64,000 bases of DNA from contig NC_135359.1 in the NCBI RefSeq assembly GCF_051622035.1, positions 18,995,501 through 19,059,500 on the forward strand, read 5' to 3'. Positions within the stretch are counted from its first letter, which is position 1; every line of letters begins with the position of its first letter. Source of the DNA: Arctopsyche grandis. Its lineage: Eukaryota > Arthropoda > Insecta > Trichoptera > Hydropsychidae. Positions 4,671-64,000 of this stretch are shown one piece after another. The notes beneath the pieces are model-generated. The model made no database searches and was not told where the DNA came from. It saw nothing but the letters and a program-made list of their open reading frames with translations. The translations under genes were made by a program, and so were the position numbers.

Positions 4671-5304
4671 CATTAATCGAAGGTCTTTTTTGATAATAAA
4701 TACAAATTGAAAAATAATTATATACTTTTTATTTGGATTATTTAATCTGGTATTACTTAAAAATAATAGTTCAAATTCAATATTGAAATTCGGAGACTCG
4801 AATGGTTCAATATTGTTTATGTTTGTACTATAATCAAATGACACATTTCAAAACAGCACGATGTATACATACATATGTAGAAAGCATTCAAATTTAGATT
4901 TGATTCATACTCGTGATATGGCCAATTAATCCGTATTAAATGAAACATATGTACATAGTATGCACATATTTACACGCTAAAATAAATACGACGTAAATAT
5001 AATGCAATTATTTGTCACGCATAAATCATGCAAAATTTGATATATAATGATAAGATCAAAGGAACCGATACATATCTAGCAGAAAAATTTATTTGTACTG
5101 ATATAATGATATAAAGATAAATGAGATACATGTACATACTATGTATTTATATGAGATACACTCATAAATAAAGTATATCATATATGTAGATGTACATACA
5201 TACATATATAGATCTTATTTATTTTGAATAGATATTTTATCTTGTTTAGAGACTTTTCCGTGAGTTTGTTTCCAAATTAATTTATGTTTTCTTTCATATT
5301 TCAG

Positions 5305-6066
5305 GAAATCGAAGATTTAGGAAGAACATCGAGTGAAAAATCAATATGGCGATCTATTCTTGAGACGATACTCTACTTGAAACCAAAAGCTTTAACGCCT
5401 TCACTGAACAGAAAATCAGTTTCTATGTTCAATCTACCCACAGAACCGTTGCCGAGATCGGATCAAGCTGTTCACAGTCGATCCTTGTCATCTAGTCAAA
5501 CCAACTTCATCCAAAATCGATCCAGATTTGACTCGAGTGGAGAGAAAAGCTGCAGCAATTGTTCCATATCTGTAGGCTCATACTCTAGCTTCGAGCGCAA
5601 CTTGAACGATCCTTTAGAAAACGACATGCCTGGTTCAAGAAGACACAGTTTCAGCACTCAACGTCCCCAAAGACACAGAACCTCAACAGAACGTGAAAAT
5701 GGAAACTGCTCTTCAGAGCTAAGAAGAAGATCCCGATCATTCAGCGCCACTGGAAATGGAAGTACGTCGCGCAGGGAAGTACATTTTGAAAATGATGAAA
5801 TAGACTTGGACCCATATTTGTCTACTCCATACAACGAACAGTGGAATAAGAAACATTACGAATGCGAGACATTTGAAAAACCCCAATTGAATCTACGACT
5901 GAAGAAAAAACATTTAGGCCCCGTCGGAAAAATGAATTGGTTGGAGATTCCGAAAAAATGCACGCTGTCAGATGATGATGACATCACTCCGGAAGCGAAA
6001 TATTTAGGAATGACCAACAATGACAACATGTTCAAGAGAAACGACAACTACAAGATGCATCAATGA
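5305..6066 (+). CDS. terminal coding exon of an unrecognised Ser/Arg-rich protein
   Basis: The exon starts after a pyrimidine-rich acceptor ending in TTTCAG at 5304, in phase 0, and stays open for 253 codons to TGA at 6064-6066. AATAAA follows at 6075. The peptide is hydrophilic and likely disordered. It starts EIEDLGRTSSEKS, has a short hydrophobic segment (IWRSILETILYLK), then several basophilic-kinase-like RRxS sites (RRHSFS, RRRSRSFS), then a charged tail with DDDDIT. No enzyme motif or membrane segment is seen. Base composition is GC-richer than its flanks, which supports real coding. Upstream exons must lie left of the window or in its first 5 kb; none could be found. I do not recognise the family. 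It is probably a cytoplasmic, phospho-regulated C-terminal region. Confidence 0.8.
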   Translation, partial: EIEDLGRTSSEKSIWRSILETILYLKPKALTPSLNRKSVSMFNLPTEPLPRSDQAVHSRSLSSSQTNFIQNRSRFDSSGEKSCSNCSISVGSYSSFERNLNDPLENDMPGSRRHSFSTQRPQRHRTSTERENGNCSSELRRRSRSFSATGNGSTSRREVHFENDEIDLDPYLSTPYNEQWNKKHYECETFEKPQLNLRLKKKHLGPVGKMNWLEIPKKCTLSDDDDITPEAKYLGMTNNDNMFKRNDNYKMHQ

Positions 6067-7699: not shown

Positions 7700-10600
7700 G
7701 TGATACCTAGGATGACTATCTGTCAAAGCTGACCACAGAGAAGAGTCTATGGCGGTAAGAACTCACTCCTTGAATGGAAATCTCTCTCAAGTACCGCCTT
7801 TTTTCTCAACACATCTTGGATAAATGCGAGAAAAATAATATCCAAACCTCCAACAAGGTAAGAGTGACGATGGATGATAGCTTAGCTAATAGAAACCTGT
7901 ATTTAGCCACGTACAATGTAAGAACGTTATCGAGTGAAGGAAGTGTGCTTGCATTAGAGAATGAATTAGAAAATATCAAATGGGATATAATAGGACTTAG
8001 TGAAGTAAGACGAAAACAGCAAAACCAAATAATCCTAAAAAGTGGTAACTGTCTCTACTGGAGAGGGCTACCAAATGGTAGAATAGGAGGAGTAGGGTTT
8101 CTTATCAATAAGAGAATAGAAAGAAATATTATAGAAATAAGCGACATATCGGAACGTATATGCTATATAGTATTAAGAATCTCGAGCAGGTACACTTGTC
8201 AAATCTTCCAAGTGTACGCCCCCACATCTAGCCACCCAGACGAGGAAATAGAAGACTTCTACGAAAAAATACAGGACGCATACGATAATAGCCGTCACCA
8301 CTTTAAAATAATCATGGGCGACTTTAACGCAAAAATAGGACAAAAGGCAAATACTGAAAGAGCAGTAGGCAATTTTGGTACCGGCCAAAGAAACGACAGA
8401 GGCGATCGCCTCATAGAATTCGCAGAACACAACAGGCTCTTTATCACTAATTCATTTTTCAGGAAAAACACCAACAATAAGTGGACTTGGGAGAGTCCTA
8501 AAGGAGACAGAAACGAGATCGATTTCATCCTAACAAATGCCCTGCACTCCGTTAAAGACGTTAGTGTTTTAAGTAAAGTAGATATAGGTAGCGATCACAG
8601 ATTAGTCCGTGCCAAGATGGCCATTAATATAAATTGCGAACGTAGGAAATTAATAAAAGGATGCAGTAACTCTCCAGATTTCGCTCAACTAAGGTCTAGG
8701 AAAAAGGAATTCGAACTCGAACTTGGAAATCGATACGGGAAATTAAACCCAGAAGCAGACATCGAGGAATTGAACACTGTAATTAGTTCGGTTCTAACCT
8801 CAACAGGTAAGAAATTAGGTGGATTCAGGAAACAGATTAAATTAAGCAAAATTTCAGCGGAAACAAAAAACCTAATTAAGCATAAAAGGAATTTAGATAG
8901 GGATAATAATAAGCAAGAATACAATCTAGTAAATAAGGAAATTAAAAAGAGAATAGTCAGGGATGTCAAGGATTTTAACAGCAAGCTAATAGAAAATACC
9001 ATTAAGAATAACCGTAGCCTGAAAAAGTGCAAACAGGATCTTTTCTTAGGCAAAAACCAAATGATCGCAATCAGATCAGAGAGCGGAGTAATAATTAGGA
9101 ATAGAGAAGAAATCATAGACAGAGTTTACACGTTCTATGCAAAACTATACGAGAACGACAACGGCCAATTCCCCGCTCTGGAATCGACACACGGCCAAAG
9201 GGTTCCTGCAGTATTGCCTAGCGAAGTAGAGGCCGCGCTAAAAACTGCAAAGAACGGTAAATCCCCAGGGGAAGATAATATTCCCATTGACTTACTAAAA
9301 TGTGGCGGCCCCCCCCTAATTAATATCTTAGCTAGGCTTTTCAGCAAATGCATCCAGAACCAAGCTATACCAGAAGGATGGAATAACGCAACTATCATTT
9401 TAATACACAAAAAAGGCGACAAAAGCGATATCAAGAACTACCGACCCATTAGTCTACTTTCAGCGGTCTACAAGCTCTTCACGAAGGTTATTACAGAAAG
9501 GCTGAAGAATATCCTCGACGAGAACCAACCTGTAGAGCAGGCAGGGTTTAGGGCAAATTTCAGCACAATGGACCACCTCCAAGTAGTTGGCGAACTAATC
9601 GAGCGCGCCAACGAATATCAACGGCCATTGTGCCTAGGTTTCGTCGATTATGAGAAAGCCTTCGATACAGTTAGTCATAATGCAGTACTTAACGCTCTAA
9701 AAACACAGGGAGTGCCGGAACCCTATGTGGGACTGTTAGCTGCAATATATAAGAATGCCACAGCTTCGGTTAAAATTTTTTCAGGTACAGATAGATTTAG
9801 CATAGGAAAAGGAGTAAGACAAGGAGATACAATCTCGCCCAAGTTATTCAATGCGGTGCTTGAGGGAGTTTTCAGGAAATTGGATTGGGATACAGCCGGA
9901 GTAAGCATCAATGGTCGCTTTTTGAGTCACCTTCGGTTCGCAGACGATATAGTTTTAGTAGCTCGTGATTCAGCTGACCTACTCATCAGACTAACACAGC
10001 TGGACAGGGAAAGTAGAAAAGTAGGATTAAAAATTAACGTAGATAAGACTAAACTAATGTTCAATAGTTATTGCATGCCTGATAGCATCCCCTTAGATGA
10101 TAAACCAGTAGAAGTAGTAAATAATTATTTATATTTAGGTCAAATAATTGACATGTCTGGTAGTAAAAATGAAGAGATAAAGAGACGTATGAAATTAGGG
10201 TGGAGTGCATTTGGACGGATGAATGCTGTTTTTAAATCAAAAATGCCACTCTGCCTGAAGAAAAGGATCTTTGATCAATGCGTTTTGCCAGTGATGACGT
10301 ATGGATGTGAAACTTGGACACTGAACGCCAAGATGCAAAATAAAATCCAATGCACTCAAAGAAGTATGGAACGCTGTATGCTTGGCATAACGAGGAAAGA
10401 CAGGAAGCGGAACACGTGGGTGAGAAATATGACAAGGGTAGTGGACATAGTGGATAGAGTGAAGAGATTGAAATGGCAATGGGCGGGTCACGTAGCTAGG
10501 AGGATGGACGAAAGGTGGACAAAAGAAGTGCTTGAATGGTACCCGAGAGAAGGCAAAAGAGTAAAAGGAAGACCGCAAGGAAGATGGGTGAACGAAATTA

Positions 10601-10717
10601 GGAAAATGTGCGGAATGAGATGGATGAGTGTTGCGCAAAACAGAGACGAGTGGAAGCGTGTTGGAGAGGCCTTCATCCAGCAGTGGATGGCGAATGGCTG
10701 TAAATGATGATGATGAT
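7700..10717 (+). mobile_element. near full-length RTE-type non-LTR retrotransposon
   Basis: About 3.0 kb, made almost entirely of one open frame, with a very short 5' leader after the AT array and practically no 3' UTR. It ends in a (ATG)n tail (10704-10717). A single endonuclease+RT ORF with a short-repeat tail is typical of the RTE clade. The 5' boundary is not certain because no clear target duplication is visible. At least eight truncated 3' ends of the same family lie elsewhere in the window. Confidence 0.88.
7774..10707 (+). CDS. RTE-type endonuclease / reverse transcriptase polyprotein, intact
   Basis: A 977-residue uninterrupted ORF, within the usual size range for RTE-clade proteins. 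The N-terminal third is an APE-like endonuclease (exonuclease-endonuclease-phosphatase fold): N48 in TYNVRTL, E77 in GLSEVRR, D183 and N185 in GDFNAKIG, and D274-H275 in GSDHRLV. The middle is the reverse transcriptase: FVDYEKAFD with catalytic D625, GVRQGDTISP (motif B) and RFADD with D724-D725 (motif C). The C-terminal domain has YGCETWTL and WQWAGHVARRMDE, followed by an RPQGRWVNEI motif. All catalytic residues are present, so the copy could be functional. The protein would nick target DNA and prime reverse transcription there. The TGA stop is formed by the tail repeat itself. Hosts often annotate such ORFs as craniofacial-development-protein-2-like. Confidence 0.92.
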   Translation: MEISLKYRLFSQHILDKCEKNNIQTSNKVRVTMDDSLANRNLYLATYNVRTLSSEGSVLALENELENIKWDIIGLSEVRRKQQNQIILKSGNCLYWRGLPNGRIGGVGFLINKRIERNIIEISDISERICYIVLRISSRYTCQIFQVYAPTSSHPDEEIEDFYEKIQDAYDNSRHHFKIIMGDFNAKIGQKANTERAVGNFGTGQRNDRGDRLIEFAEHNRLFITNSFFRKNTNNKWTWESPKGDRNEIDFILTNALHSVKDVSVLSKVDIGSDHRLVRAKMAININCERRKLIKGCSNSPDFAQLRSRKKEFELELGNRYGKLNPEADIEELNTVISSVLTSTGKKLGGFRKQIKLSKISAETKNLIKHKRNLDRDNNKQEYNLVNKEIKKRIVRDVKDFNSKLIENTIKNNRSLKKCKQDLFLGKNQMIAIRSESGVIIRNREEIIDRVYTFYAKLYENDNGQFPALESTHGQRVPAVLPSEVEAALKTAKNGKSPGEDNIPIDLLKCGGPPLINILARLFSKCIQNQAIPEGWNNATIILIHKKGDKSDIKNYRPISLLSAVYKLFTKVITERLKNILDENQPVEQAGFRANFSTMDHLQVVGELIERANEYQRPLCLGFVDYEKAFDTVSHNAVLNALKTQGVPEPYVGLLAAIYKNATASVKIFSGTDRFSIGKGVRQGDTISPKLFNAVLEGVFRKLDWDTAGVSINGRFLSHLRFADDIVLVARDSADLLIRLTQLDRESRKVGLKINVDKTKLMFNSYCMPDSIPLDDKPVEVVNNYLYLGQIIDMSGSKNEEIKRRMKLGWSAFGRMNAVFKSKMPLCLKKRIFDQCVLPVMTYGCETWTLNAKMQNKIQCTQRSMERCMLGITRKDRKRNTWVRNMTRVVDIVDRVKRLKWQWAGHVARRMDERWTKEVLEWYPREGKRVKGRPQGRWVNEIRKMCGMRWMSVAQNRDEWKRVGEAFIQQWMANGCK

Positions 10718-26572: not shown

Positions 26573-29425
26573 TCAATCGGTCAAGATTCTCTTGATGTTA
26601 GACCTGAATTGATGTAGGGAAATACCAAACAGATCAACCTCATTCAGCTCTCCGTTAAACATACGATAAACGCGCTGCAGATAAAAATATTTTTGGGAAT
26701 TAGTATTGAAAGGATCAAGTGAAAAGAGTGTAACGCGTCTAGGGTATCGAACTGGGATTCTGAAATTAACCTTATTCAGTAAATCAGAACAATCAAGGAA
26801 ACCATTTATGAGCTTAAAGAAGAATATAGCATCAGAATGTCGTCGCCTGACAGAAAGATTGTTAAAAGAAAGGATTTTTAAAATGTCGGAAACAGTAGAA
26901 TGGGTATAGGTAGGAAAAAGGTAGCGTAAGGATTTAATAAATTTAAGTTGAACTTTCTCAATACAATTAATATGGGATAAATAAAAAGGTGACCAGATAA
27001 TTGAGGCAAATTCAAGGTGAGACCTTACAAAGGAAAAATAAAGTAATTTTAGTACATAAGGATCATTAAAGGGTTTTGTTGAGCGGAGTAGGAATCCAAG
27101 AGATTTAAATGCTTTGTTGGTAATAAAAGAAATATGTTCAGAGAAATCTAGTTTATTATTGAGTATTACACCAAGATCCTTAATAGAAGATGACGTGTTA
27201 AGGATTGAATGATTTAATTGATATTGATTAGTAATAATTGACTTATTTCTAGTGAAATTTAAAATAGAGCATTTTTCTAGATTAATAAAAAGATCATTAT
27301 TTAAACAATATATAGAGAATCTATCTAGATCTTCTTGTATCTTATGACAATCGTCTATGGTGTATATAGGTTTGTAAATTTTTAAATCATCAGCGTAAAG
27401 AAGTATAAAGGAATGTTTGAAGATGTATGAGATATCATTAATATAGAGTAAAAAGAATAAGGGACCTAAATGCGACCCTTGTGGGACACCGGAAGGAATA
27501 TGTCTAAGTGATGATCTAAAACCATTGAGAATTATGATTTGGTGACGATTTAGTATATACGAAGAGATCCAACGAAATAAATTTCCTCGGATTCCAAGGG
27601 ACCAAAGTTTATTGAGTAAAAGGTTGTGATTGATTTTATCAAAAGCTTTAGAGAAATCCGTATAAACGACGTCTATTTGGATTCGTTTGTCCATATAAGA
27701 TGTGAGAGTACTAGTGAAATTAAGCAGGTTAGTCTCTACCGATCTCCCCTTAAAAAAACCATGTTGTTCAGGTATAATGTAGTTTTTGAAATTGGAGAAA
27801 AGGAAATTATAGATAATTTTTTCAAAGATTTTACTAATGACAGATAGTTTAGATATAGGACGGTAATTCTCAATAAGATTCTTATCACCTTTTTTAAAAA
27901 TAGGGGTGATGTAAGATAATTTCCAATAGTCAGGAAATTTACCGTTCGACATAGAAAGATTGAAAAGGATTGTTATGGGAAGAGATAATGGGACAGCACA
28001 TTTAACAAGGAAAAAAGAAGGCAAACCATCACAACCCGCACCAAGATTAACATTGAGAGAGTTGATGTGACTGAGTACAGTAGATAAGTCAAAATGAAAA
28101 GTAGATAAGTTACAAGAAGAAGTATCTGTATTAGAGATAGAAAGGTTAATGGTAGAATCACGATTGAAAGTGGAGTCAAAATAGTCAGCAAAAATGGTAC
28201 AGATTTCAGAACCATGTGAAGCCGACTTATTTCCATAATACATTACGGAAGGATATGAAGAGGAGGTATTTTTTTTTGAATTTATATATGACCAAAATGA
28301 TTTGGGATTAGTTTTAATATTATTTTGAATAAGAGAAATATAATTTCTAAAGCAGATTAAAGAATATTTTTTAATTCGAGCTCTTAATAGTGAAAAACTT
28401 TGATAATCTAAGGGATTTGAATAAATTTTAAATTTTTTATGGAATTTGTTTTTTTCTTTTATTATTTTAATAAGAGACGATGTAAACCAAGGGGGATATT
28501 TGGTACGCTTAGATTTAAGAGTAAAAGGGACGTGGCATTCAATAATATTTTGTAAGGTATCGTAAAATTTTTTACAAGCTAAATCAATATTTAAATTGGA
28601 CAAAAGTGAATTCCAATTGATATCGCTTAAAATTGGAATAATTGTAGCATAGTCAGCTTTTCTAAAGAGGAAAGTTTTATTATAATTATAATTCAAGGGT
28701 GAAGATTTGTTGTAAATTATTGAGATGCAAAAGGATAAATGATGAGAATCTTCATGGATTAGCGTAGAGTCAGCACGAGAAATATATAAGGGGAAACTAC
28801 TAATAGCTAGGTCAAGAATACGATTATTAGTATTTGACAAATAATTGTATTGATAAAGTTTATTATAAGATAAGAATTGAGTAAAGGAAAGGGAAGAAAA
28901 ATTAATACAATTGGAAGGAAATAGATGCAGATTTGAGTCGTATTTTGTCCAATCAATAGTGGGAAGATTGTAATCACCGAGTAAAATGAATCGATCCTCT
29001 GGATAATTGGTTATTAGATCAGATACTTTATTTAAATGGGTAACTAATAGAGTTTGGTGAGAATTACCAGGAGGAATATAGACAGTACAGATATTTAGTT
29101 TAAAAAATTTAGTGGTAATAGTAATCCAAAGGTCTTCTGTGGAAGTTAACCAATTATTTTGAATGACAGAGGGTAGATTATTTTTCACAGCTATGATTAC
29201 ACCACCACCAAATATTTGGTTATGAAGAGAATAATCTCTGTCACGTCGAAACACCTGATATCTGGCATCAAAAAACTCACTATTATTGAATGAGTCATTT
29301 AGCCAAGTTTCTGATAGACAGATAATATCATAATTATTAACTAATACATTTTGAAGAAAAGAGTCAGATTTAGTTCGGAGACCTCTGACATTTTGATAAT
29401 AAATGACAAGACGATTAGAAGACAT
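26573..29425 (-). CDS. ORF2: APE endonuclease and reverse transcriptase (CR1/Jockey group)
   Basis: An open frame of 950 codons from the ATG at 29425. The frame continues 60 codons upstream to 29605, but that stretch is a hydrophobic, low-complexity translation of AT-rich sequence. The internal Met directly before the YQNVRGLRTK endonuclease motif is therefore the better start. Endonuclease residues: N12, E39 in CLSETW, D151/N153 in LLGDYNLP, and a DSHH variant (D226-H228) at the usual SDH site. RT motifs: YTDFSKAFD (A), GVPQGSHLGPLFF (B) and YADD with D679-D680 (C), then NLEKC and LGVILN. No stop or frameshift interrupts it, so the copy is potentially functional. It acts in target-primed reverse transcription together with ORF1. 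Confidence 0.92.
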   Translation of the reverse strand: MSSNRLVIYYQNVRGLRTKSDSFLQNVLVNNYDIICLSETWLNDSFNNSEFFDARYQVFRRDRDYSLHNQIFGGGVIIAVKNNLPSVIQNNWLTSTEDLWITITTKFFKLNICTVYIPPGNSHQTLLVTHLNKVSDLITNYPEDRFILLGDYNLPTIDWTKYDSNLHLFPSNCINFSSLSFTQFLSYNKLYQYNYLSNTNNRILDLAISSFPLYISRADSTLIHEDSHHLSFCISIIYNKSSPLNYNYNKTFLFRKADYATIIPILSDINWNSLLSNLNIDLACKKFYDTLQNIIECHVPFTLKSKRTKYPPWFTSSLIKIIKEKNKFHKKFKIYSNPLDYQSFSLLRARIKKYSLICFRNYISLIQNNIKTNPKSFWSYINSKKNTSSSYPSVMYYGNKSASHGSEICTIFADYFDSTFNRDSTINLSISNTDTSSCNLSTFHFDLSTVLSHINSLNVNLGAGCDGLPSFFLVKCAVPLSLPITILFNLSMSNGKFPDYWKLSYITPIFKKGDKNLIENYRPISKLSVISKIFEKIIYNFLFSNFKNYIIPEQHGFFKGRSVETNLLNFTSTLTSYMDKRIQIDVVYTDFSKAFDKINHNLLLNKLWSLGIRGNLFRWISSYILNRHQIIILNGFRSSLRHIPSGVPQGSHLGPLFFLLYINDISYIFKHSFILLYADDLKIYKPIYTIDDCHKIQEDLDRFSIYCLNNDLFINLEKCSILNFTRNKSIITNQYQLNHSILNTSSSIKDLGVILNNKLDFSEHISFITNKAFKSLGFLLRSTKPFNDPYVLKLLYFSFVRSHLEFASIIWSPFYLSHINCIEKVQLKFIKSLRYLFPTYTHSTVSDILKILSFNNLSVRRRHSDAIFFFKLINGFLDCSDLLNKVNFRIPVRYPRRVTLFSLDPFNTNSQKYFYLQRVYRMFNGELNEVDLFGISLHQFRSNIKRILTD

Positions 29426-29810
29426 TGTAAAAAAGGAAGTAGATAGAGCACGTAGTGATATAAATATAAATATCCATATGCATAAATGAAAATAGATATA
29501 TGCATATAAACATACACATAACTGCATACACAGATAAAGATATGGAATTATTAAGCAAACCATCCTTGGTGATACCAGTTGAAATGCAAAGGTATACATG
29601 GACACAAATATAAAAATGAACTCGTACCTTTTTTAGTTTATGAGTAAAATATATGTAAATAGCATAGTTATATAGTAATAATAAAAATAATAAATTATAT
29701 AGCCATACGTACATAATTGTTTGCACATACATTATAATATGTGATGCAGACCAGTAGACAATAAATGCATAGATAATTATTAGGTTATTAAAATTTAATA
29801 TTGCACTTAG

Positions 29811-30839
29811 TCATTTGATTTTGCAAAGATCTGATTCTTTTGAGATTTGTATGATATTGGAGCTCGCACTTTTTCTAATCATGATCTTGCAATCTTTAAC
29901 CCACAAGTAGGCGTAGTTATATTCAGTTTTCAATTGGCGTGCTCGCTTCAATAATAATTTATTCGTTGGTGTAAGGTGATCCGTTACGTATAGGGTGGTG
30001 GGCGGGCCTGGAATATTGATGTCGTTGGTGGTGATGCCGCGGCGGGCGCGCACGGCCGCCATCAGCAGGTCCTTACGACGGCGCTGAGTGAACCGTACGA
30101 CCACTGATGACGTGCGCACACTCACATCGCTGTTGCCCTCTCGCTGTTGCTGTTGCTGTTGCTGTGAACCTGCAACGCCCTGGGACGGGTACGGCCGCAC
30201 ACGGTGTATGGTGTCAATATCTGTGTCGCACAATTTGTGACCCACGACAGCACATAAGTCATATAATATAGACACTAGATTTTCACCCTTTTTCATAGGT
30301 ATGCCGGATATTTCTACATTGTTTTTTCTAGAGAATTGATCTTGCAGATTGTTTTCTTGTTTCAGTTCAACAATAGTATTTTGCGCCTCAATTAAACCTT
30401 TATTTACATCAGAAAAGCAGGAAATTTTCTTTTCAGCAGTGGTTAGTCTCCCATCAAATTCATCAGACTTAGCCTCTATTGTGAATAATTTATTGTTTAT
30501 GTCTGTGATTACAGATTTTATGTTTTCAAACTCATTTTTCATGGTATTAAAGTCTGCTCGAAAGCATTTAATTTCATTAAGTATATCAAATAAAGATGGC
30601 TGAGGACTGATGACTGAATCTTGAGAACTGAGCATTAGTGATGAGGACTGAGACGGCGGAAGGGGGTTAGGATGGATACGGCAAGAAACGCATCGCCATT
30701 TTTCCTTATTCTTTGACGTCATTTTTTTGTATTTTGTTTCCGAAATCCCCACACAATCATGGTGGAAAGGTTCTTCACAAAGCTCGCACAGCACATAATT
30801 AGTCAACAACACAACACTTTTGCATTTATAGCAAATCAT
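29811..30839 (-). CDS. ORF1: PHD-finger nucleic-acid-binding protein of the retrotransposon
   Basis: 342 residues. The N-terminus is a PHD finger: C3, C6, C18, C21, H26, C29, C50, C53, with W48 two residues before the seventh ligand. A helical, probably coiled-coil part follows (about 85-175), where ORF1 proteins usually oligomerise. The C-terminal part starts RKNNVEISGIP and resembles the RRM-like domain of L1/CR1 ORF1 proteins. A seven-Gln run near residue 228 interrupts a variable loop. ORF1 proteins of this group coat the element RNA. The intact frame beside an intact ORF2 suggests a young copy. Confidence 0.88.
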   Translation of the reverse strand: MICYKCKSVVLLTNYVLCELCEEPFHHDCVGISETKYKKMTSKNKEKWRCVSCRIHPNPLPPSQSSSLMLSSQDSVISPQPSLFDILNEIKCFRADFNTMKNEFENIKSVITDINNKLFTIEAKSDEFDGRLTTAEKKISCFSDVNKGLIEAQNTIVELKQENNLQDQFSRKNNVEISGIPMKKGENLVSILYDLCAVVGHKLCDTDIDTIHRVRPYPSQGVAGSQQQQQQQREGNSDVSVRTSSVVVRFTQRRRKDLLMAAVRARRGITTNDINIPGPPTTLYVTDHLTPTNKLLLKRARQLKTEYNYAYLWVKDCKIMIRKSASSNIIQISKESDLCKIK

Positions 30840-31068
30840 TGTTAAGTATTATTAGTTATTAGCGTCACAATTTATAATTTAAATAAGAGAATATTCTCAA
30901 AATTTCGCACAAAAATATGTATGAAATAAATAGTTTTTTGTTTAACAATGTTGCATTATGCTGTAATATTGTAAATATGCTCTGGGTTCGAGAGTTAATA
31001 TATAATTTCAGAAATCAGTTTGATCACGTTCGTTGCCAAACGAATATTATTTGAAGAAACAAAAGAAC

Positions 31069-57055: not shown

Positions 57056-57181
57056 ATGGCCATATTGGAATCTTTCCCTACCGATTTGGAAGCCGGTGTT
57101 CCCATTGTGTCTGCTATTTTGGAATACGAACTGCACGTACTCGTCCTTGTTTACATGTGCTTCATCCATTTCAAATATTGA
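57056..57181 (+). CDS. upstream ORF (41 aa) in the hid-like 5' leader
   Basis: The first ATG after the predicted transcription start, in a good context (G at -3, G at +4). It opens 41 codons and stops 72 nt before the main ATG, in a different exon position but the same exon. The peptide starts MAILESFPTDLEAG and continues into a strongly hydrophobic C-terminal half (VPIVSAILEY...LVLVYMCF). Its start resembles the main protein start (MAIRFFPSTED): Met-Ala-Ile, then F-P and acidic residues. It may be a translation-lowering uORF, or less likely a small RHG-like peptide. Its use would favour internal or reinitiated translation of the main ORF. Confidence 0.45.
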   Translation: MAILESFPTDLEAGVPIVSAILEYELHVLVLVYMCFIHFKY

Positions 57182-57253: not shown

Positions 57254-57380
57254 ATGGCTATACGATTCTTCCCGTCTACTGAAGATACTGACGCACAGTA
57301 TGAGATGCTCAACAGGCTGTTACGAGAGTTGTGCGAGCTGCTGAGAGTTATGATGGTTACCAGGGGTGCTGAAACGACCG
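57254..57380 (+). CDS. hid: hid-like coding exon 1 (IBM exon)
   Basis: The ATG has an ideal context (A at -3, G at +4). The exon encodes 42 residues plus one base (phase 1) and ends ACGACCG/GTGAGT, a consensus donor. It holds the whole IAP-binding N-terminus and the leucine-rich helix, so the death motif sits on its own exon before a 4.3-kb intron. Confidence 0.82.
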
Positions 57381-58573
57381 GTGAGTCTTCTCGATGTTGC
57401 TGTAAATGCCGCTGCTGTATCAAACGCTCTTCAAACTAACTCATCCCATTCCTAATTAATGTAAAAACAAATGGCACTCTTCAAATCTTCGACGAGTCTC
57501 GCCTTCTTCATCCTCTCTGCTATCGAATATGCAAGTAATTTTGTTAAAACGACTTATCTGAATGTTGTGTGATTCATATTTAGGCCTCGATTTTTCCAAG
57601 TGTCCAAGCTTTGCGATAAAATTGGATTTTTTTCATTATTTTTTAAATGTAAAAATCTTACTAAACAAATAATGCATGTATGTATTGATATGGCAATAAT
57701 ATTATCATTTATTTAATTCTTTTAACATTATTTAAAAAATATTTACTCGAAATAAGTAGTGATGAAGATTTACAAAAAAAAAAAAATAGCTCATATTTTT
57801 TTATACTAAATATAAGTACATAGTACCTATTGTAATTAGTTAGTTTTAGTGTTAAGTAAATGTGAGATTATTTCTAAATTTATACACTTTTATTTAAATT
57901 TATATAAATTTATAAATTTATACAAAATGTGTATTATTACTTATGATCTCATTTTTTTAGTAATATTTATACTTGCATAGTGAAATTCTCATTGAATAAA
58001 TACTCGCATTTTATACGGTGTATTTTGTATTATTTTTAATAAATTATGCATGCTTATTACTAGTATACTAACATGTTATGTTTATTTATTTATCCTTGCA
58101 CTTTTCCTTTCCACATTTCTTTGGTAGATGGAATTAATTTTTTTTTCTTATTTACAAATTACTAAAATATAAAATTAATATTTATTTATATAATAGTAAC
58201 GTTTAACAATGTAGTAAATTTATTATTTTTTCCATTTACATTTTATTAGATAATATGCTTATCACTTAGTAGATATTATATATGTATATATGTATTTAGT
58301 TTTTTTTATTAATTTATTTAATGCACTATCAAAATTAAGCTACTTTTTTGTACGTACATCACAAAGATAATTTCTTACGCATTTCCGCTGAAATATAACA
58401 TATGTATAATTCAACAGATAAAATTAAATATTTTATTTACTTCAAACGTTTCGATGGAAATGCTAAAATATTATATCATACGTTTTCTACTATTACTACT
58501 ACTACCATTACTACTATTCTTACTGCTACCACACACTACTGTTACTACATACTACTGCTACTACTACTACTGT

Positions 58574-58617
<44 letters not shown>

Positions 58618-61600
58618 TTAACATGCTCGAAATTCCAAAATTCAAAAAACTTAACTTTTACTGTACACATAGTAAGATGTTATAATAGTGTCAAGCGCAT
58701 GCCAACGTACTTTAGCTGTGCTAAAATTATGCCACATGTTGTTTGTTTATCTTAGCCGAGGTGCTTGAACCTGTTCCGAGTCGTGCAAGTCATATCCTGA
58801 CTCCTAAACACCTACGCTTTTTAATAAAACACACACATACATATATACATACGGAAAAAAATGATTGAAAGGACATTAACACCAAATTTGTTGCACCATC
58901 GCGGTACCAAGTTGCACGATAAGATTTGCGATAACGTTTCGGTCCTGAGCCTGTCCGCAAAACCGGATTTTTAATTTAAATTTACCGATATGATTTTTTC
59001 GGTCACTTTCACCTGGTCGATGATTAGTCATGACTTCGGCGCTTTTTCGCACGTGACGCATCGATTTACGAACTTTCAGTTCGGAAATTCTATCTCGAAA
59101 CAATGAAGCGGGCCCACTTGGGAGCTATAAATTGGGGAGCATTATCAAATTTACATAAACATCGTGTAATATGATACTATCCAATTGAGGGATCGTTTAA
59201 AATCCATTTAACATTTTTTCCCATGTTTCCAAATTGTAAACTGTGCGCGCTTAAAACGATGCCCATATCGTTATACTAGTGGATAGAGAGCGGTCTAATT
59301 ATATCAATTTATTGGAAATTGAAAAATTAATGAGTTTCGCGTTTAGTTTGTACGGAATTGGTTACGTAAGTTAGCTTAATTTTTTTTAATGCTAAAAAGT
59401 TCCTCCTAGTAGATTTGAATTTTTGGAAATTAATACAATTAAATAGCTCATATATTATCATTTGCGTTAAACCAAAGACTTATTTTTCTTGGATTGAAGT
59501 TAGTTTAGAAAATAGTCTCTCCGAAACTTTTACATTTTATTATGTATGAAGTTGCTGCAGAATTCAACTTACAATATTATGACAATTTACATATAATTTG
59601 TTACATTAGAGTTATAAAAAGCTTGTAAAAAATTATTGTTATTCTTCACATTTATTAGACTAATAAAAAATTACAAGAAAATGTTCAAACTGTTAATAAT
59701 ATAAACATTGAATTTGAATATGTAAAATTTAACATTTGACGCAAAAAAATCTATTATTGTATGTATGTAATTATATAAAAATTTTCTTATAAACAGAAAA
59801 TTGTTTTGCAATACCAAAATACTAAAATTGTTTTGCAATTTATTCTGTATGTAATAATAAGAATTGATGAAGTTTAGTGATCATGCGAAAATTCGCCCTC
59901 TAAATTTTGGCCGATTTGAAATCGGAATCAATCACTGATCATAAAGATTTGCGTCCTTCCGCGAATAACGATAACCTCGACAATCAAATTAATTTCATGC
60001 ATGTTCAAAATATACCATCCCGTTAAATAATTATAATAAATCAAAAGTAATCGACTCATTCATTTAATTGTTCTGTTGTAAGTTCAGTGCCAATGATTCA
60101 CACACGCAAGTCGAACTTTCCTTGAAGACGGTCGCGGCCATTGCATTCAAAACATCACTCAAAAAGTAAACAAACTCGCGTGTCCATTAATTATATTCAC
60201 ACTAGTGATTCATTCATAGATCAGACAATAGTTGTTGAACAAAAAATATGATTTAATAAAGAACAATTAATCCAAGCGACGAGCCGACGTTCAGGTGTTG
60301 AATCGACCTAACTTCCCAGAAACGACTGTTAGTTAACCTGCACATAGTCTTATGAATTTATTATTTATTTTTTGTTAATATTTCATTTAAAAAAATATAC
60401 ACCTATATACATGAGATATGCTATTGCGTTTTAAACAATGTGCACGCTTGTTGCGTCACTGCAGAAAATTGCATGCAGCTGCATTCGAATGACGTGTCCA
60501 ACTACTACGGTAGTACTACTCGGTCAGTAGTGTAAACGTATAGTAAATATTATGTGTTTATGATTTCACCATTTGCTACCGCAAATGAGAGACAAAGATC
60601 TGCTTGTTATGTACCGCTAAGTACATATGAAGCTTGTTTGTTTGAATTCAATCAAAATATTATATTGTCTTCTGAAGTTGACTAAAATCTGGCATCGACA
60701 AAAAATCATTGCTTTAAAATCTAGATGTCCTATGTCAATCTGAACCCATGGATTCGCTCATTATAAAATCCACATCAGTCATTCTCTAATTGTGATGCAG
60801 CTAACTCGTTCCAAGGTCGGTGCATATATTATGCGCTTTGTTCGCGCCATGTAACTGCAGTAATAATAATATAAAGAGCACTTGCTATGGGTGTATGTAT
60901 GTATGTATGCATGCTTTTGCGAATCCTTTTTTGTGTTATTTTTTTTCTTTACACCTTCAGTGTGGTGCAACAAAGTATGGCTTCCACTTTTGTCTGTCCA
61001 CCTGTTTCGCATTAAGTTGTGTGGCGCTTCTCGCATGTATGCAACCTTCAATAAGGGCGTACACCTTTCAATCACCCACGAGATAGGTCCTTTGAGTCTG
61101 GGGGGTACATACGGGTCGTCTCGTTTACCTGTTCGCTGGTTTTAATCCGAAGGTCCTCGGTTCGTTCGCGAACATTTTGTCCCGAAACTTTTGAAGGCAA
61201 CAAAATCAAAAGGGCACAGGAGATGTACCCAAAGAAAGGAAAGGAATAAAAAAAACGAGATCACCGACAGGTCCCCCTAATCTTTGTTTTGGTTCCGTCT
61301 CCCTCTGCAAACTGGTTTTCAGTGATCGCCCTTTGATTTTTCTTTTTTCCACTGAACACCTGTGCTCGAACCCAACACGAAACGGGTACTCGCACTCTCA
61401 TCACGAAATCCTTTTTTGTGAGCTTCTCAATACTGGAGATATATCAAAGTGTATTATAGTTCTCTTCACTCATTTGGTTTGACACTCGTATTGATATCTG
61501 CAAGCAAAACTGCCATGACTATTACATATATATTTAAGAATTGAAAAACATCAGCTTTGTAGCGTTAACAGGTGTTACTTCTCCTTGCGTGACTATCGCT

Positions 61601-62679
61601 TTCGACAGGGGATTATCCCCTTCAACTTGACTAGATTTTTTTATTAATTTGTTCTTCGTTTTTTTTTTTGTTTACAGCTCAGATCCCGTCAAACCTTCAA
61701 CTGCCTGATCTTCTGGCGCACAATAATGTTCACCAGCAACTTCCACGCCGAAGAGTGAGATCGTCCCAAACACCACCGACCAGTCCTTCGTGCAGCTTCC
61801 AGCACCTGTCAAGAACTTTCAGCGAAGTTTTCGATCCCGAACCCACCAATTCCATGGCATATTTCGGAGATGATGAGGTGTTTTGCCCCAACACTCCTGC
61901 AATTACGCCATCGACCGCAACCAACCGACCAACATTCCCTCCGAGGCAAAGACGACGACGACGAAGAACCACCAGCTTACGCGAGATAAGAAAGAAAACC
62001 ACCAAAAGCAAAGGCGAAGATGCTGCAAATTGGAACGGAGAAGAAACCACTTGCCTCAACAGGGACGATTCCTGCGAAACCAACGCTAATGTAAGTAATG
62101 TTCCTATTATTTTATCCCCAATTCCCACGAATTTGTTAGAATCAAATCAATTATATTCAACGAAGCGAAACCACTCTTATAATCCGTAATTGGATTCGTT
62201 CGCCGTTAAGTACGGTTTCGTTTTACCTACAAGAGGTTTTTTTTATTTGTACTTTTTCAAAGACATTCACTGTTAAAGATTGTCGTATTTCCATTTCCTC
62301 GTCTGCAGCTTTAATCCTATTCATTTGGCGAAGTTAATTCGGTTACGACGCACCAAAGAGATTTTTCATTGTGCGATTTTAATTTGAACCGTGAGAGGGT
62401 GGATCTCTACCCCACCTTTGGCACGAGGGAAAATTGCTTAATTAAAAAAATCCATTATTGCCGCCACGTTTAGAGCATCCCTATCCCCCTCTCATGTCAC
62501 TGAAGTTTCTAAAATGCATTTTTTTTGGTTCTCAGGTCGAGGTTGTACCTCAAGCCCCGATTGTATTGGGGAATGAAGGATCCCTCATCTCTACATTCTT
62601 GTCAGCAAGTCTCGGCGGTTCGATCTGGACTGCAGTCGTTCTCGTCGTTGGATGGAAACTGTTGGCCACCACCCGATGA
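57254..62679 (+). CDS. hid: RHG-type IAP antagonist, Hid-like (3 coding exons, 227 aa)
   Basis: Join 57254-57380, 61678-62090, 62536-62679; phases 1 and 0; all GT/AG. After Met removal the N-terminus is AIRFFP, an IAP-binding motif (A-[VI]-x-[FY]) that would engage BIR domains of inhibitor-of-apoptosis proteins and free caspases. Residues 14-36 form an amphipathic Leu-rich helix, possibly like the GH3 region. Residues 66-125 are basic, then Ser/Thr/Pro-rich, with TPPTSPSCSF and two P-x-[ST]-P sites (S78, T115). Arg run 134-139. Residues 197-224 are a hydrophobic tail anchor (LISTFLSASLGG...WTAVVLVVGWKLL), expected to target mitochondria. Exposed IBM plus tail anchor plus MAPK-type sites is the Hid design; Reaper, Grim and Sickle are much shorter. 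It is shorter than Drosophila Hid (410 aa). Orthology is inferred, not aligned. Confidence 0.72.
57381..61677 (+). other. intron 1 of the hid-like gene (4.3 kb)
   Basis: Contains the (TAC)n array at 58488-58619, AT-rich stretches at 57.6-58.4 and 59.4-59.85 kb, and GC-richer parts at 58.9-59.1, 59.9-60.2 and 60.95-61.4 kb. These could be intronic enhancers. Short open frames at 60.8-61.1 kb overlap on both strands and have no family features. Confidence 0.7.
58488..58619. repeat. (TAC)n / (ACT)n microsatellite
   Basis: About 130 bp of imperfect to perfect TAC repeats, the purest part being 58570-58617. It lies within intron 1 of the hid-like gene. The Leu run in one frame is a repeat artefact. 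Confidence 0.95.
61678..62090 (+). CDS. hid: hid-like coding exon 2
   Basis: Acceptor: T-rich tract, then GTTTACAG at 61677. Donor: AACGCTAAT/GTAAGT at 62090/62091. The 413 nt complete the split Ala codon and encode residues 43-180 without a stop. GC-rich for the region. It carries the TP/SP sites, FGDDEVF, the Arg run and a Lys-rich patch (KKTTKSK). Confidence 0.82.
62091..62535 (+). other. intron 2 of the hid-like gene (445 bp)
   Basis: GTAAGT donor and TTTTTTGGTTCTCAG acceptor. Reading through the donor stays open for 33 codons to TAA at 62187-62189, so intron retention would give a 213-residue form without the membrane tail. Confidence 0.78.
62536..62679 (+). CDS. hid: hid-like coding exon 3 (tail-anchor exon)
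   Basis: Phase 0, 47 residues, stop TGA at 62677-62679. It encodes the C-terminal hydrophobic helix and ends in a short tail (ATTR), as in tail-anchored mitochondrial proteins. The membrane anchor is therefore on a separate exon from the IBM. Confidence 0.8.
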   Translation, partial: VEVVPQAPIVLGNEGSLISTFLSASLGGSIWTAVVLVVGWKLLATTR

Positions 62680-62723
62680 ATTTTCCACGTTTTCCGAATA
62701 AAAAATGAACCATTTTTGGAAAC

Positions 62724-62730
62724 GATCTCA
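62724..62730 (+). promoter_or_regulatory. bantam 7mer-A1 seed match
   Basis: GATCTCA pairs with nucleotides 2-7 of bantam (seed GAGAUC) with A opposite position 1. It lies 45 nt after the stop codon. Drosophila hid mRNA is a known bantam target through its 3' UTR. Confidence 0.45.
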
Positions 62731-63415: not shown

Positions 63416-63423
63416 TGATCTCA
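63416..63423 (+). promoter_or_regulatory. bantam 8mer seed match
   Basis: TGATCTCA is the full 8-mer site for bantam (nucleotides 2-8 plus A1). It is 737 nt after the stop, in AT-rich context, which favours site accessibility. Extended 3' pairing is not obvious. Confidence 0.5.
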
Positions 63424-64000
63424 TTTTAAGTAATGTGAAAAGAGATTTTTTTTAAAAATATTAATAATAATTATAATGTTATTGAAAAGTTTAAATAGTA
63501 ATTATTGTGCCAATATTGTGTATATTTTTTGTTTTTCTTTTGTAGAACTATTATTGTATTGATATAAATATGTAAACGACAGCTATTGTTCCTACAATAT
63601 CTGGTGATTTTTCTTGGCCATGTCTTTTTACTTTTTTTATTTTTGTTTACATTCGAATTAGTAAAAATATAATAATAAGATATTTTCAATTAAAAAATAG
63701 TCAATTACGTCTTTTTTATAATTTTAATTATTAAATTCATTAGGAAATGCTAGGTCGACAAACATTATTAGTTTAAATCGCCACATTTTGAAACTATTCA
63801 AATTTTCTGTATGAGACACGTTCGAAAATGTTTTTTTTATTTTTCGTTTTAGTGACGTGAGGGTTATTAAAATCCCGTTAGAACAACGAAAAATTAAATA
63901 TATTTTAAATGTGTCAAAAATTTTCCACCTTTCCTCTTAAATTCTTCAGACCTCGATGGTCATTTGTAATATACATAATATATTGCTTTTCTTGTATAAA

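Follow-up and report, generated by a model that had tools for sequence, protein, structure and literature searches.

The stretch of DNA analysed here, referred to as the window, comprises 64,000 nucleotides of contig NC_135359.1 of the hydropsychid caddisfly Arctopsyche grandis (order Trichoptera), and it harbors a gene whose three consensus-spliced coding exons (127, 413 and 144 bases, the stop codon counted) encode a protein of 227 aa that begins with MAIRFFP and ends with SLGGSIWTAVVLVVGWKLLATTR (Table 1). The same exons, the length of the product and its first residues had been read from the letters in an earlier note; they were recovered here, and the protein is identical (100% over 100%) to the NCBI model protein of LOC143912179, listed as 'uncharacterized', so that the three-exon gene model is confirmed, beyond chance, at the level of sequence. 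The suspicion that the gene might be missing from the annotation of this species proved wrong, since it is annotated at NCBI and only the name is lacking. RHG genes are highly divergent and therefore go unnamed in genome annotation, the caddisfly case included. Upstream of the main ATG, and in frame with it, a 41-aa ORF (57056-57181, with its TGA at 57179) likewise begins Met-Ala-Ile and would, if transcribed, be a candidate upstream ORF. Elsewhere in the window, an open frame of 977 aa (7774-10707), which encodes endonuclease and reverse-transcriptase domains, represents a non-LTR retroelement, and the minus strand at 26573-30848 carries a 1019-aa endonuclease/reverse-transcriptase frame and, upstream of it, a frame of 345 aa in which a PHD finger is combined with a Baculo_FP_2nd domain; the two frames are taken to be the two ORFs of one non-LTR retroelement. 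At 5281-6066 lies a Ser/Arg-rich open frame of 261 aa that resembles an exon of some gene; Pfam gave no match to it at E ≤ 10. The Rfam search of the window returned no match.

Table 1. Features of the caddisfly Hid-like gene and of the sequence downstream of its stop codon (positions are those of the window, 5' to 3').
Feature	Position	Strand	Remarks
Coding exon 1	57254..57380	+	ATG at 57254, donor GTGAGT, ends in phase 1; IAP-binding motif and amphipathic (GH3-like) helix
IAP-binding motif (IBM) A-I-R-F, residues 2-5	57257..57268	+	predicted to be exposed after removal of Met1
Amphipathic helix, residues 19-33, LNRLLRELCELLRVM	57308..57352	+	called GH3 in lepidopteran IBM1
Exon-1 run-off frame, 61 aa and stop	57254..57439	+	in the place of the S isoform of Lepidoptera; Cys-rich tail
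Intron 1	57381..61677	+	
Coding exon 2, central region	61678..62090	+	acceptor TTACAG, donor GTAAGT
TPPTSPSC block, residues 74-81	61770..61793	+	S/T-P sites
GDDEVFCP block, residues 106-113	61866..61889	+	D108, V110, F111 and P113 invariant in alignment A1
Intron 2	62091..62535	+	
Coding exon 3, including stop	62536..62679	+	acceptor TCTCAG
Predicted tail anchor, residues 202-227	62599..62676	+	most hydrophobic 17-mer at 202-218, then GWK...R
bantam 7-mer site GATCTCA	62724..62730	+	putative 3' UTR
bantam 8-mer site TGATCTCA	63416..63423	+	putative 3' UTR
bantam 7-mer site	64095 (L015:95)		beyond the window
bantam 8-mer site	64449 (L015:449)		beyond the window

Domain and structure databases offered no family for this protein: the Pfam search gave nothing above the cut-off, its only match being ACT_ACR9_3rd at E 0.26, below the cut-off, and a sequence search of the PDB found no match above the cut-off. 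Three unnamed relatives (P0002-P0004) are 85, 60 and 47% identical to it over 69, 52 and 49% of the query, mainly in the part encoded by exon 2. As judged by eye, P0002 agrees with the window in the intron-side letters at both splice sites, and all three relatives look like exon 2 read through with intron on both sides. For the exon-1 run-off frame the protein search gave no candidate sharing three words. A broader set was collected with a chimeric probe composed of published Sf-IBM1 motifs and pieces of the window, which yielded 48 proteins from 85 candidates, 26 of them examined as single sequences and others in alignments; besides the window's own protein and P0002, the set holds 16 short IBM1-like proteins, 29 long Hid-like proteins of the lepidopteran type (28 with lepidopteran names and one unnamed) and P0050, which is unnamed and full-length. 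Because the probe held pieces of the window, relatedness was judged by a profile derived solely from the 29 long proteins, the caddisfly excluded. It was run against the window protein and 500 shuffles of it, together with four relatives and 1124 stop-to-stop ORF segments of the window. With this profile P0050 was found at E 3.7e-17 and the caddisfly protein at E 1.7e-12; among the 1124 segments the exon-3 ORF came first (E 3.7e-7) and the exon-1 ORF second (E 0.001), with the next window ORF at E 0.45 and the best of the 500 shuffles at E 0.051. Such a profile search had been proposed in the earlier note, and its outcome bears out the assignment made there at both ends of the protein. Exon 2 alone and P0002-P0004 were undetected by the lepidopteran profile; the middle of the protein is therefore not recognisably common with Lepidoptera by this test, and its support comes from the NCBI model and from P0002-P0004.

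The claim that the gene is a Hid orthologue also draws on direct comparisons. BLASTP against the Galleria protein, run as a single comparison, aligned 242 columns at 28% identity (E 2e-12), alignment A1, which contains 18 of the 29 long proteins, gave 32-39% identity to the caddisfly, and P0050 was identical to the caddisfly protein at 17 of 32 positions in the tail and at 18 of 44 at the N-terminus (BLASTP). The invariant columns of alignment A3 (24 rows) include M1-A2-I3, F5, P7, S8, L19, L22, L26, E28 and L30 and, in the tail, G208-S209-I210, T212 and G219-W220; relatives devoid of Ala2 or of the tail, which would have spoken against the orthology, do not occur among these 24 rows. It is very improbable that the locus encodes an unrelated tail-anchored protein with an MA start by chance: MA starts are frequent among proteins and an IBM has just four residues, but each end of the caddisfly protein independently matches the lepidopteran profile, and the invariant columns lie at both ends. 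Identification of the gene as a Hid-like RHG orthologue is thus supported by sequence comparison.

Hid-like homologues have been described as having an N-terminal IBM, a C-terminal Arg, a GW lying 5-7 residues ahead of the end, a coding sequence split among three exons of which the end ones are smaller, a splice site of conserved position ahead of the 3' segment, fewer than 300 aa and, mostly, a single copy (PMC8620624). The caddisfly protein starts with Met followed by Ala (MAIRF), terminates in ...GWKLLATTR with seven residues after W220, and is encoded within the size limit by a large middle exon flanked by two smaller ones. Genome matches at E ≤ 1 consisted of the three exons only, with five candidates scored, and a second copy was not found at that threshold. 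Such homologues have been published for Lepidoptera, Coleoptera, Hymenoptera, Hemiptera and Dictyoptera (PMC8620624); Trichoptera and caddis are not mentioned in the main text of that paper, and no caddisfly RHG gene appeared in the literature among the matches listed. The occurrence in an insect outside the well-studied flies, emphasised in the earlier note, is less surprising than it was taken to be there, because Hid-like homologues have already been published for these other orders; since the gene was to be expected from PMC8620624, the surprise is modest.

With the lepidopteran Hid-like L isoform the caddisfly protein has in common the N-terminus MAI-F-P-S, the LNRLL-EL-E-L helix, the DxVFxP block, the GSI-TA...GWK tail and the C-terminal Arg, in addition to the overall identity seen in A1; the exon-1 junction in Lepidoptera is compatible with the same phase and a split G codon, as judged at the protein level from Manduca P0006/P0040 and Papilio machaon P0009/P0024. 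It differs from the L isoform in having AIRF in place of AIAF, in being one residue shorter before FP and in the presence of TPPTSPSC. Drosophila Hid shares the IBM and a tail anchor with a terminal Arg (PMC8620624), and may have a similar PPxSPSCxF block; however, the fly protein has 410 aa, its gene has four coding exons against three in the caddisfly (PMC8620624), and its helix 1 is located at residues 90-110 (PMC12803136), whereas the caddisfly helix directly follows the IBM. Reaper, Grim and Sickle of Drosophila share the N-terminal IBM and are described as being without the C-terminal consensus that is present in the caddisfly (PMC8620624).

When the TPPTSPSC block was compared with fly Hid, 7 of 1000 shuffles were as good for the caddisfly protein, 7 for P0003 and 11 for P0004, against 90 for P0050 and 872 for the Galleria protein; the likeness to fly Hid would exceed chance but is a lead only. 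The block is kept in the three unnamed relatives and absent from the lepidopteran proteins examined. Among the blocks that the earlier note proposed to check for conservation, the Ala of the IBM is invariant in A3 and TPPTSPSC is retained in those relatives, but TPPTSPSC does not extend to the lepidopteran proteins examined, and SLGG reads LSGS in Lepidoptera. The hydrophobic C-terminal tail anchor described in the earlier note was recovered, with a best 17-mer hydropathy of 1.85 and with tail columns invariant in A3; the mitochondrial location predicted for the protein is based on this hydropathy.

At the N-terminus, the consensus A-[KTVI]-[PAE]-[FEISY] reported for the genus Drosophila (PMC8620624), which is a fly sub-feature and not family-defining outside flies, fits AIRF at three of four positions. 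The Arg at position 3 falls outside it, and the affinity for BIR domains is therefore uncertain; in the lepidopteran and P0050 rows examined this position is Ala or Pro. The N-terminal Ala of the motif is present and invariant, but the sequence AIRF is not the textbook AVPF/AVAF. The putative partners are present in the genome. BIR domains gave 20 matches at 12 places, eight of the matches in the loci L005-L012; several BIR loci are intron-free ORFs with two BIRs, and Pfam RING domains were found in L005 and L011. The L005 ORF is IAP1-like, with two BIR domains and a RING, and its BIR2 matches chain 1jd4, the BIR2 of the fly 'apoptosis 1 inhibitor', at E 1.5e-33. The silkworm was reported to have four BIR members (PMC3091752), and an IAP expansion in the caddisfly is possible. 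Caspase domains gave 28 matches, with clusters at C11:5797787-5814245 and C7:32052114-32066896 that are possibly tandem copies. The departure of AIRF from the consensus, the Ala or Pro found at position 3 elsewhere and the many IAPs would suit a protein that is Hid-like by descent, in which Arg3 has weakened IAP binding and which works chiefly at mitochondria, by way of its helix and tail, or on a different IAP. We consider this unlikely, as Ala1, Ile2 and Phe4 of the motif are retained and the groove spacing named for fly DIAP1, G-L-x-x-W-x3-D-D-P-W-x-Q-H-A-x-W (PMC12803136), is by eye preserved in the BIR2 of the IAP1-like protein.

The helix of exon 1 is strongly amphipathic, its hydrophobic moment of 0.73 at residues 17-34 being reached by 9 of 2000 shuffles, and it is identical at 9 of 15 positions to the Sf-IBM1 motif called GH3 by its authors. 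Sf-IBM1 has been reported to kill Sf9 cells and to sit on mitochondria, and has a predicted membrane helix. According to a 2026 preprint fly Hid lacks GH3 (PMC12803136); the exon-1 profile against helix 1 of fly Hid was marginal, 33 of 1000 shuffles being as good. Recognition of the caddisfly helix as the GH3 of Reaper gained no support from the same profile, for which 487 of 1000 shuffles were as good. In Lepidoptera, run-off of exon 1 yields the short S isoform, IBM1 (PMC8620624), which ends in a membrane helix, whereas the caddisfly run-off frame contains seven Cys and no hydrophobic helix, its highest hydropathy over 17 residues being 0.79. A tblastn search of the window with 15 S proteins found no moth short-isoform tail in intron 1 better than E 1, and the best window matches outside exon 1 fell in a retroelement ORF (E 0.002). 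Given the Cys-rich run-off and the lack of an IBM1 tail in intron 1, the short isoform with a membrane tail would either be an innovation of Lepidoptera or have been lost in the caddisfly.

Sequences downstream of the stop codon point to microRNA control. In the fly, hid is regulated by bantam and has a 3' UTR 2.2 kb long (PMC2885982), and hid was the only known bantam target according to a 2016 paper (PMC4885091). The bantam microRNA was found in the caddisfly genome, and the 2.2 kb after the stop contain four of its seed sites against 0.13 expected (Poisson 1e-5) from a background of 400 kb (20 stretches of 10 kb, both strands). The bantam word ranks 8th of 65,536 for over-representation in this stretch, the seven words above it being of the poly-T type. 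When 30 microRNA seeds were tested on 1.8 kb, bantam had four sites, five others had one and 24 had none. The duplex energies of the sites are -11.9, -14.7, -19.2 and -17.3, with a median of -5.7 for random stretches. These data suggest that the fly bantam-hid brake exists in Trichoptera; bantam-hid control outside flies did not appear in the literature among the matches listed. The sites could instead lie outside the mRNA, either because the transcript ends at the AATAAA found at 62697, 18 bases past the stop, and thus before or at the first site, or because the further sites belong to another transcript, as the seven minus-strand ORFs of at least 70 aa in the next 5 kb would allow. Within the last 1321 bases of the window there are, moreover, only two of the four sites (0.08 expected), and the word ranks 70th of 65,536. 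This alternative deserves serious weight but appears the less probable one, given that four sites in 2.2 kb have a probability of about 7e-5 even at the window's own higher rate and that fly hid, which bantam regulates, has a 3' UTR of 2.2 kb. A further regulator of fly hid is miR-263a/b (PMC2885982). The mature miR-263a and miR-263b sequences both occur in the caddisfly genome, and the putative 3' UTR contains one miR-263b-type seed match, GTGCCAA (63507-63513), and one miR-263a-type match, GTGCCAT, at 64506 (L015:506); such single matches are no more than a weak sign of regulation.

The analysis shows directly how the gene is built and to which sequences it is related, that the partner families occur in the genome and that the seed sites are clustered; the gene is very likely a Hid-like RHG gene encoding a predicted IAP antagonist. 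According to this model, Met1 would be removed and Ala-Ile-Arg-Phe would enter the BIR-domain groove of the IAP1-like protein, whose occupation would set caspases free; by its tail anchor the protein would be lodged in the outer membrane of mitochondria, a location described for fly Hid, self- or partner association may be aided by the helix of exon 1, and the mRNA is probably repressed by bantam. A bolder proposal, which we put forward tentatively and with the odds somewhat against it, is that the caddisfly gene, under bantam control, keeps an ancestral form of the insect death switch in which a single protein unites the IBM, the association helix, the S/T-P block and the mitochondrial tail. 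If so, the bantam-hid brake would already have existed before flies and the caddisfly-moth lineage parted; the membrane-tailed short isoform of moths would have arisen within Lepidoptera, and Reaper, Grim and Sickle would derive from exon 1 as shortened copies. The points most worth attention are the clustered bantam sites and the lack of a short isoform with a membrane tail, and the gene opens questions on the age of the short isoform, on whether bantam control of hid predates flies and on how far the IBM may vary. With the caddisfly member a gap between the fly and moth genes is filled, and the two-isoform moth gene gains a natural outgroup.
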